A stretch of DNA of 64,000 bases from Crocinitomicaceae bacterium (GTDB taxonomy: Bacteria; Bacteroidota; Bacteroidia; Flavobacteriales_D; Crocinitomicaceae): assembly GCA_022447665.1 (NCBI GenBank), contig JAKVAQ010000001.1, positions 76,830-140,829 of the forward strand, written 5' to 3'. The notes beneath the pieces were generated by a model. It saw only the letters and a list, made by a program, of their open reading frames with translations, did no database searches and was not told the origin of the DNA. Shown here in pieces: positions 1,203 to 36,391 of this stretch (the stretch's first letter is position 1; the number at the start of each line of letters is the position of its first letter). The position numbers and the translations under genes are program-made.

Positions 1203-1287
1203 ACTTCGACAGGCTCAGCTACCAGCTTGCACAATGAAAGGACACTGAGGGATTGTCCCGAAAGACAATCGTCTCGAAGTGCCGAAG
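1203..1287. repeat. Family A palindromic repeat, copy A2 (rearranged right arm)
   Basis: The left arm ACTTCGACAGGCTCAGCTACC matches the family. The right arm begins GGACACTGAG and ends TCTCGAAGT but has been expanded by a perfect small hairpin, GATTGTC-CCGAAA-GACAATC. It sits between the DUF559-like gene and the 3' end of the anti-sigma gene, closing the repeat island on the right. Confidence 0.7.
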
Positions 1288-5145: not shown

Positions 5146-5208
5146 ATCCTCCCCCTAGCCCCCTCCATGCTCCTACGCTGAAGCTTCAGCGCAAGCGTAA
5201 GGGGGAAT
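5146..5208. repeat. Family B palindromic repeat, copy B4, with nested palindrome
   Basis: Starts ATCCTCCCCCTAGCCCCCTCC and ends AAGGGGGAATAG. The apex carries a 16-base perfect palindrome (CGCTGAAGCTTCAGCG) inside a longer stem (ACGC...GCGT). It forms an outward-facing pair with B5, spaced about 97 bases, like B2/B3. The gap 5054-5352 between the sigma gene and the macroglobulin gene holds only these two repeats; I see no credible gene in it. Confidence 0.75.
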
Positions 5209-35878: not shown

Positions 35879-35939
35879 CGGCACTTCGGCAGGCTCAGTG
35901 ACCTGACAGCATAAAGGTGGCTGAGCCTGTCGAAGCCAT
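35879..35939. repeat. Family A palindromic repeat, copy A3 (upstream of GIY-YIG gene)
   Basis: 61 bases, one mismatch from copy A4 at 36231-36291 and in the same direction. Arms CTTCGGCAGGCTCAG and CTGAGCCTGTCGAAG around a 22-base centre that also partly pairs. It lies 13 bases before the GIY-YIG start codon. Confidence 0.92.
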
Positions 35940-35952
35940 AATCAATAAAAAA

Positions 35953-36258
35953 ATGATCCAAGGATACATGTATATTCTAAAGTGTTCAGACGGAAGTTTT
36001 TACACCGGAAGCACAAAAGATCTACAAAAACGCATTGAAGAACATAATGCGGGCATTGGTTCAATTCACACTTCAAAAAGAAGACCATTAGTTTTAGTTT
36101 ATTTTGAAGAATTCAGTCAAATCGATTTGGCTTTCAAAAGAGAAAAACAAATTCAAGGACGGTCAAGACGAAAAAAGTTAGCTTTAATAAAATCACAAGA
36201 ACACCTATTACCAGATCTTGCAAAATATCCCGGCACTTCGACAGGCTCAGTGACCTGA
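35953..36258 (+). CDS. GIY-YIG nuclease family protein framed by repeats
   Basis: 101 residues from ATG at 35953 (an in-frame ATG at 35968 is also possible). It is a single GIY-YIG domain of the small YhbQ/URI-like type: MYILKCSDGSFYTGSTKDLQKRIEEHN contains the two-strand core (here YIL and FYTG), Arg27 and the Asn/His region, and AFKREKQIQGRSRRKK holds the probable metal-binding Glu64. Family-A repeat copies lie immediately upstream and across its 3' end; the last seven codons (TSTGSVT) and the TGA stop are repeat sequence. The protein end is therefore dictated by the mobile or expanding repeat. Function unknown; the repeat association suggests repeat movement or processing (inference). Confidence 0.87.
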   Translation: MIQGYMYILKCSDGSFYTGSTKDLQKRIEEHNAGIGSIHTSKRRPLVLVYFEEFSQIDLAFKREKQIQGRSRRKKLALIKSQEHLLPDLAKYPGTSTGSVT

Positions 36259-36291
36259 CAGCATAAAGGTGGCTGAGCCTGTCGAAGCCAT
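36231..36291. repeat. Family A palindromic repeat, copy A4 (supplies the GIY-YIG stop codon)
   Basis: Direct copy of A3 with one difference (CTTCGACAGG against CTTCGGCAGG). Its arms CTTCGACAGGCTCAG / CTGAGCCTGTCGAAG are perfectly complementary over 15 bp. TGA at 36256-36258 inside it ends the GIY-YIG gene. Confidence 0.92.
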
Positions 36292-36310: not shown

Positions 36311-36374
36311 CGGTACTTCGAAAGTACTCGTAATCTGAAATCATAGAAAGATGGAGACTGAGCCCATCGAATTC
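36311..36374. repeat. Family A palindromic repeat, copy A5 (decayed)
   Basis: GGTACTTCGAAAGTACTCGTAATCTGAAATCATAGAAAG..., ending ACTGAGCCCATCGAA, aligns along its whole length with A4 with many substitutions. It lies 20 bases after A4, before the end of the convergent LuxE-like gene. Confidence 0.65.
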
Positions 36375-36391
36375 ATTTTCGTTAGAAGGGA

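Follow-up and report, generated by a model that had tools for sequence, protein, structure and literature searches.

A small GIY-YIG nuclease gene flanked by REP-like hairpin repeats whose class, in relatives, is predicted by the C-terminal tail of the nuclease

A gene for a small GIY-YIG nuclease lies, in the DNA analysed here, between two nearly identical hairpin repeats, one of which runs into its coding end. This raises the question of whether the gene and the repeats form a unit and, if so, what ties a given nuclease to a given repeat. The window, i.e. the whole stretch of DNA analysed (64,000 nt; C1:76830-140829), belongs to a genome of 4.06 Mb in 84 contigs.

The window locus and the design of the repeats

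The nuclease gene (35953..36258, + strand) encodes 101 aa from an ATG at 35953; a GTG at 35917 would allow a longer frame. Its product matches PF01541 at 4.2e-18, which agrees with the GIY-YIG identity proposed in an earlier, sequence-only reading of this DNA. Residues Y7, Y17, R27, H31 and E64 are all retained, and the catalytic Y7, Y17, R27 and E64 were invariant across the 28 rows of an alignment. Sequence comparison and folding delimited an upstream repeat, A3 (35879..35939), and a downstream repeat, A4 (36231..36291), which overlaps the end of the gene. Both are 61 bp long and lie in direct orientation; 60 of the 61 bases are shared (position 11 has the only mismatch, G/A), and the match stops exactly at the 61-bp limits on both sides. 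The distance of 352 bases given in the earlier reading is correct when measured from start to start; 291 bp lie in between. A3 ends 13 bases before the ATG, as had been described. A4 starts inside the gene, its first base being the third position of a G codon, and translation confirms that it supplies the last seven codons, TSTGSVT, followed by the TGA (36256-36258). This repeat-encoded C-terminus with its stop (36235..36258, + strand) stands where relatives carry the tail that predicts the class of repeat (see below).

Each 61-bp repeat consists of two class-A REP units, GGCACTTCGACAGGCTCAGTGACC and GGTGGCTGAGCCTGTCGAAGCC, in inverted orientation and separated by a 12-base spacer. By match to a 15-mer, the units of A3 were placed at 35884..35898 (+ strand; loop TTCGGCAGGCTCA) and 35921..35935 (- strand; loop TTCGACAGGCTCA), and those of A4, both with the loop TTCGACAGGCTCA, at 36236..36250 (+ strand, inside the last part of the nuclease ORF) and 36273..36287 (- strand). 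The same search found a lone class-A copy at 1204..1218 (+ strand). As single-stranded DNA, A3 and A4 fold into hairpins of -19.7 and -21.9 kcal/mol (z -5.3 and -7.9), and none of 200 shuffled sequences folded as well as either. Allowing up to two mismatches, the 15-mer has six matches in the window against 0.06 expected; with up to one mismatch it occurs 26 times in the 4.06 Mb genome, against once for the reversed pattern. A more general motif has 37 copies in this genome and none in reverse. That these copies may be cognate to the nuclease is suggested by the match between tail and repeat class described below. Other genomic sites bear single units, several of them in an extended form, CCGGCACTTCGACAGGCTCAGTGACCT; the 61-bp pair was found only at the window nuclease gene among the 19 genome stretches compared. 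Just past A4, at 36312-36376, a stretch GGTACTTCGAAAGTACTCG...GACTGAGCCCATCGAATTC looks by eye like a diverged copy of the repeat.

Comparison of 441 instances defined the unit as a hairpin whose stem varies and covaries and whose loop ends (TTCGA...CTCA) are conserved. At stem positions 1-3, pairing was observed in 94, 89 and 89% of the instances, compared with 61, 33 and 41% after the right arms had been dealt anew. All four Watson-Crick types are present at positions 2 and 3 which, together with the high pairing, indicates that the stem is maintained by pairing and not by sequence. The units share the features of REP sequences in being short imperfect palindromes that are dispersed and partly arranged in inverted pairs. 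Such pairs (><) were the commonest arrangement of neighbours within 120 bp (87 of 227), and the window repeats are arranged likewise. REP repeats are reported to end in a GTAG or CGTC tag (PMC3733652). Base counts beside the loop showed no fixed tetranucleotide in the 441 instances.

Four classes of loop were distinguished. Class A is of the TTCGAC-ARG-CTCA type; class B is TTCGRC-NNN-GCTCA, where NNN is mostly TNC; class C is TTCGAG-NN-CCTCA; and class D has TCGATAC, a variable apical hairpin and then YACTCR. A narrow first motif, TTCGRCNNNGCTCA, captured one class only and undercounted the repeats; the union motif TTCG[AG][CG]N2-3[CG]CTCA was used in its place. The narrow motif had no match in flanks of up to 5 kb around viral homologues of the nuclease on 42 contigs.

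Association of the repeats with one clade of nuclease genes

A profile of the clade to which the window gene belongs was used to collect the best 80 of 568 loci, with flanks of up to 10 kb. According to their records, these 80 loci span Bacteroidota, Fibrobacter, Chloroflexi, Kuenenia, Nitrospira, Neomarinimicrobiota, Cloacimonadota, Ignavibacterium, Melioribacter and Aggregatibacter, and many come from metagenome bins. Twelve had less than 400 bp on one side, which left 68 fully flanked. Within these best 80 of 568 loci, the union motif lay no more than 400 bp from the nuclease gene in 61 of the 68 (upstream in 52, downstream in 55, on both sides in 46), while only 33 of 703 control ORFs from the same loci had it on either side and two on both. 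Its density was 6.3 per kb within 200 bp of the nuclease genes and 0.01-0.09 per kb beyond 2 kb, and the reversed pattern did not occur within 5 kb of them. The earlier suggestion that nuclease and repeat travel together thus holds as an association, and the repeat is far from equally frequent at genes of every kind.

Two further comparisons were made. Words of at least 13 bp common to the upstream and downstream flanks were present in 115 of 165 loci and, among 1002 control blocks, in 37. Of 30 PF01541 loci of other kinds, taken from eight genomes, two (L173 and L197) had the motif within 400 bp. In a larger collection of 228 loci, a motif of any class was found within 400 bp in 191, and on both sides in 134. 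The first downstream motif begins before the stop codon of the nuclease gene in 47 of the 159 loci of this collection that could be judged. Repeat-encoded C-termini such as that of the window gene are therefore common, but they are not a rule, and coverage of the stop codon by the repeat is not universal.

Match between the tail of the nuclease and the class of repeat

The residues directly after the GIY-YIG core predict the class of the flanking repeat: AYRD goes with class C, ECxNExH with class B, SKNY-like tails with class A and KKxF with class D. The class of a locus was taken as that of the commonest motif within 400 bp; five loci (L063, L097, L235, L427 and L428) gave ties, which were counted as they fell. 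Loci below 75 bits were left out, as were L059 and L094, which duplicate L017 and L022. The KKxF-tailed genes had at one point been considered repeat-free, an idea that was ruled out when comparison of their flanks revealed the fourth class, D.

Among the 102 loci of the discovery set, class and tail agreed in 31 of 31 loci with a class-C tail, 21 of 23 with a class-B tail and 14 of 15 with a class-A tail; they also agreed in 15 of 18 with a class-D tail, the other three having no motif, and 15 tails could not be called. With the rule for classes A-C frozen, hold-out set 1 (69 loci) gave 25 matches out of the 26 loci that had both a repeat and a called YRD, ECxNExH or SK/RNY tail; 11 further called tails had no motif. 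Class D was defined when the discovery set and hold-out 1 were already known, and the KKxF pattern was widened after hold-out 1 and frozen before hold-outs 2 and 3, so that only hold-out 3 tests class D blindly. This last set, examined with all rules frozen, comprised 57 loci in 49 new genomes, 19 of them with uncalled tails. The classes matched in 32 of 33 loci (C, 10/10; B, 13/13; A, 1/1; D, 8/9; p = 2e-15 against the marginals, uncorrected for kinship), and in 31 of 31 when two ties were removed. Four more B-tailed loci and one more D-tailed locus of this set had no motif.

The discovery set and hold-outs 1 and 3 together make up the 228 loci mentioned above. Subtraction of 46 uncalled tails and of 24 called tails without a class A-D motif (15 ECxNExH, one SK/RNY, eight KKxF) leaves 158 loci with both tail and repeat, of which 153 matched; the mismatches were L115, L120, L235, L248 and L428. 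Removal of the five ties gave 150 of 153, and loci with repeats of one class only gave 138 of 139. The downstream repeats taken alone matched the tail in 131 of 137 loci. The upstream repeats taken alone matched it in 120 of 125 loci (28 of 28 in hold-out 3), which argues against a mere linkage of tail codons with the downstream repeat.

Hold-out 2, whose 40 loci nearly all fall outside the clade, was used to control for specificity. A class A-D motif was found at one of its 38 genes with uncalled tails. Its two loci with an ECxNExH tail, one with a class-B repeat and the other with no motif, were left out of the pool. Most of the loci L361-L398 form a neighbouring GIY-YIG subfamily with an NPxxKDL tail, which is without class A-D repeats at these loci.

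Agreement between tail and repeat might reflect no more than common descent of both. However, pairs of nucleases with cores 88-92% identical differ in tail and in repeat class (L066/L110, L060/L073 and L027/L098), and class was shared with the nearest neighbour by core sequence in just 51 of 83 cases. Among 33 class-C tails, 29 distinct coding sequences were counted. On a core tree of 102 loci, 34 class changes were counted, against a mean of 55 after shuffling; on that of 158 loci the repeat class changed 57 times and the tail 55 times. As these trees are weakly resolved, their well supported (starred) branches gave only two to three independent contrasts per class, none of them against the rule, which is too few for significance. 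The best control against mere descent is provided by paralogues within one genome. In all seven genomes of hold-outs 1 and 3 that contain differently tailed paralogues (15 loci), tail and repeat matched gene by gene; one of them, that of L262, also contains class-B motifs, as a minority. Another member of the clade lies on contig C53 of the window's genome; as its tail, KKNF, predicts, class-D repeats stand on either side of it, at 5150 and 5639. At this locus (L352; G000:C53:5105-5700) the class-D repeats are long and nearly identical, and class-A and class-C repeats lie further out. Taken together, these sequence comparisons suggest that the evolution of the enzyme is matched by that of its hairpin.

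The window protein itself has YPGTSTGSVT at the tail position, which matches none of the tail classes. W70, nearly invariant in relatives, is R in this protein, and its gene sits on a long branch of the core tree (1.13, against a median of 0.25). We infer that the tail codons were replaced by the repeat, so that the putative reader is overwritten and the catalytic core intact. With its tail replaced in this way and R at position 70, the specificity of this copy may have been lost or changed. An AlphaFold2 model of the protein had a mean pLDDT of 84, with residues 92-101 below 50; the model of a class-C relative (pLDDT 90) has a short tail helix at 93-96, itself of modest confidence. In these models the tail would lie outside the conserved fold, as expected of an exchangeable reader. 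A Foldseek search with the model returned only the UPF0213 proteins 1zg2 (3e-6) and 1ywl at E < 0.001, and these two were also the only hits of the clade profile among the sequences of solved structures (E 5.6e-22 and 2.1e-17). The clade thus resembles UPF0213-type proteins by profile and by fold; both entries come from structural genomics and their function is unassigned. Slx1 chains followed in Foldseek at E 0.002 and above, but Slx1 is larger, structure-specific and works with a partner. Searches of Rfam gave sub-threshold matches only, NCBIfam gave no match above its cut-off, and PADLOC gave none.

Gain, loss and possible modes of spread

Presence and absence of the gene and the repeats could be compared at three sites. 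At one intergenic site in the genus g88, the gene was accompanied by class-D repeats in all five gene-bearing loci (query locus included), while none of the 14 gene-free loci with both neighbours had a class-D repeat. The gap in these gene-free loci was below 200 bp in eight, and in six it was 620-1373 bp and held something else; 11 of the 30 loci of this genus lacked one neighbour gene and were left unjudged. At the window locus, neither gene nor repeat adjoins the lux-like neighbour in 29 relatives, which are distant (50-58% protein identity), and the other neighbour of the window locus was found beside the lux-like gene in none of the 29. This comparison covered 30 loci of 56 matching genomes, with L325 omitted for having only 258 bp on the relevant side. 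No case of the gene remaining at this locus without a repeat was seen.

The third site lies within hsdR. Five contigs, by record or kinship from Bacteroidota (three), Nitrospira and Cloacimonadota, carry a cassette of repeat, gene and repeat there that keeps the reading frame and separates FQTFM from FGEYP (L064, L072, L081, L100 and G165, the last equivalent to L244 and L300). The set of hsdR homologues comprised 12 loci, one with the cassette and L309 left out; all ten uninterrupted homologues were without a repeat at the site and had 8-27 residues there. At the cassette-free hsdR, g88 and lux-like sites compared, no repeat was kept, not even the single copy that the earlier reading had asked about.

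Repeats are also numerous away from the genes. At least ten class-C repeats were present in seven of 17 genomes with an identified class-C gene (one of them, G497, assigned by eye, the pattern missing its tail VAYRD) and in eight of 282 others, which may include class-C genes outside the loci fetched. At least two copies were found in 16 of the 17 and in 33 of the 282, a difference that is partly automatic, as the copies adjoining the gene are counted. Four genomes (G490, G001, G536 and G043) have 32-84 class-C repeats (84 in G490, 40 in G001) and no identified class-C nuclease gene; the repeats may outlive the gene, the gene may have been missed, or something else may spread them.

The best reading of these observations, by analogy with RAYT-REP systems, would be a site-specific GIY-YIG nuclease with cognate hairpins. 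It is probable that the cassette consists of a small nuclease and its own REP-like hairpins, that the tail reads the loop, and that cutting spreads the repeats or the whole unit. The short C-terminal tail beside the GIY-YIG domain would recognize the loop of its own class; the nuclease would probably cut its own hairpin in DNA that is single-stranded or extruded; and repair or copying after the cut would spread or maintain the hairpins and sometimes the gene, so that a REP-gene-REP unit could enter new sites. The sequences themselves show the association and its specificity, the match of tail and loop, the covariation of the stem, and the joint presence or absence of gene and repeats at one site; contact between tail and loop, cleavage and mode of spread are inferred. 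GIY-YIG enzymes are hydrolytic nucleases and are not known to act as transposases, which makes the passage from cut to new copy the weakest link of this mechanism.

The arrangement resembles REPIN-RAYT systems in its short stem-loops with a conserved loop, its inverted pairs and dispersed copies, the concentration of repeats around a single enzyme gene, and the way enzyme and repeat vary in step. It differs in the enzyme, which in those systems is a Y1 HUH transposase; the window protein has no Y1 HUH domain, PF01541 being its only match. We tentatively put forward a broader view, which may well prove wrong: a transposase-free counterpart of RAYT-REPIN, in which a nuclease disperses both the hairpins and itself, a tail of about ten residues acts as an exchangeable loop reader, cores swap targets by swapping tails, and four loops and four tails form a code across several phyla. 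The literature, as far as our incomplete coverage of it goes, yielded no description of such a four-class hairpin family, a tail code or joint gain and loss, nor of hairpin repeats paired with a GIY-YIG nuclease.

A pairing of small GIY-YIG nucleases with genomic repeats is already reported for Ssn. These site-specific single-strand GIY-YIG nucleases, which act on the NTS repeats of Neisseria, were reportedly described in Nature Communications in 2025; that study is said to include homologues with cognate sequences of their own, and Ssn of Neisseria is said to have a role in DNA uptake and transformation. The present system resembles it in that a repeat of the genome goes with a small protein of the GIY-YIG type, and the clade is probably akin to the Ssn nucleases. 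An alternative is thus that the nuclease guards against or modulates incoming single-stranded DNA in natural transformation, with the repeats as marks of the host and mobility as an incidental trait. Such a role fits every result of this analysis. In its favour, the superfamily is the same, a small enzyme goes with numerous repeats in the genome, as reported for Ssn of Neisseria, and UPF0213 proteins are the sequence relatives of solved structure. We nevertheless hold it to be somewhat unlikely, as the concentration of repeats around the gene itself and the insertion within hsdR also indicate a mobile cassette.

A selfish nuclease of the homing type, which would cut hairpin-like sites and have its gene inserted by repair, leaving the repeats as remnants of the target, is less probable still. 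The REP-gene-REP units found in frame at a single hsdR site, on contigs of such different kinship, speak for it, and a mobile-looking gene in frame inside host genes is indeed what GIY-YIG homing endonucleases present. However, no intron or intein was recognized, and the repeat was absent from the uninterrupted hsdR homologues and the gene-free g88 sites, so that it was no pre-existing target there; besides, repeats also occur alone, in tens of copies.

That Y1 transposases (RAYTs) spread the repeats, with the nuclease as a passenger, was rejected as very improbable after a search for PF01797 in 59 genomes. Y1 genes, some of RAYT length, are present in 39 of these, including that of the window, but the motif lay within 400 bp of none of 30 Y1 loci (some shortened by contig ends), as opposed to its regular presence beside the GIY-YIG genes, and the class of the repeat tracks the tail of the nuclease. 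Ordinary terminators or mRNA-protecting hairpins, lying by chance beside small genes, would share the hairpin shape and the intergenic location but can hardly be credited, given that the repeats are specific to the clade, that among the 134 control ORFs with a length of 80-150 aa only 11 had the motif on either side and two on both (best 80 of 568 loci), and that it was so rare at the uncalled-tail genes of hold-out 2, mostly NPxxKDL-type GIY-YIG genes.

Should the reading of a nuclease with cognate hairpins be right, unexplained but widespread hairpin repeats of bacteria would become a testable enzyme-target system. The code predicts that an exchange of tails would exchange the hairpin preference, and it would yield small nucleases with distinct predicted DNA targets. 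It may also explain how some bacterial proteins come by C-termini and in-frame inserts that derive from repeats.

Some further peculiarities were seen at individual loci. L064 and L081 contain other repeat-derived in-frame inserts, e.g. TVRQAHRP; L300 has a PELVDSV array, and in L064 the open frame stops early downstream. In L051, L058, L083 and L091, the clade gene shares an open frame with a downstream sequence that by eye looks GHMP-kinase-like.
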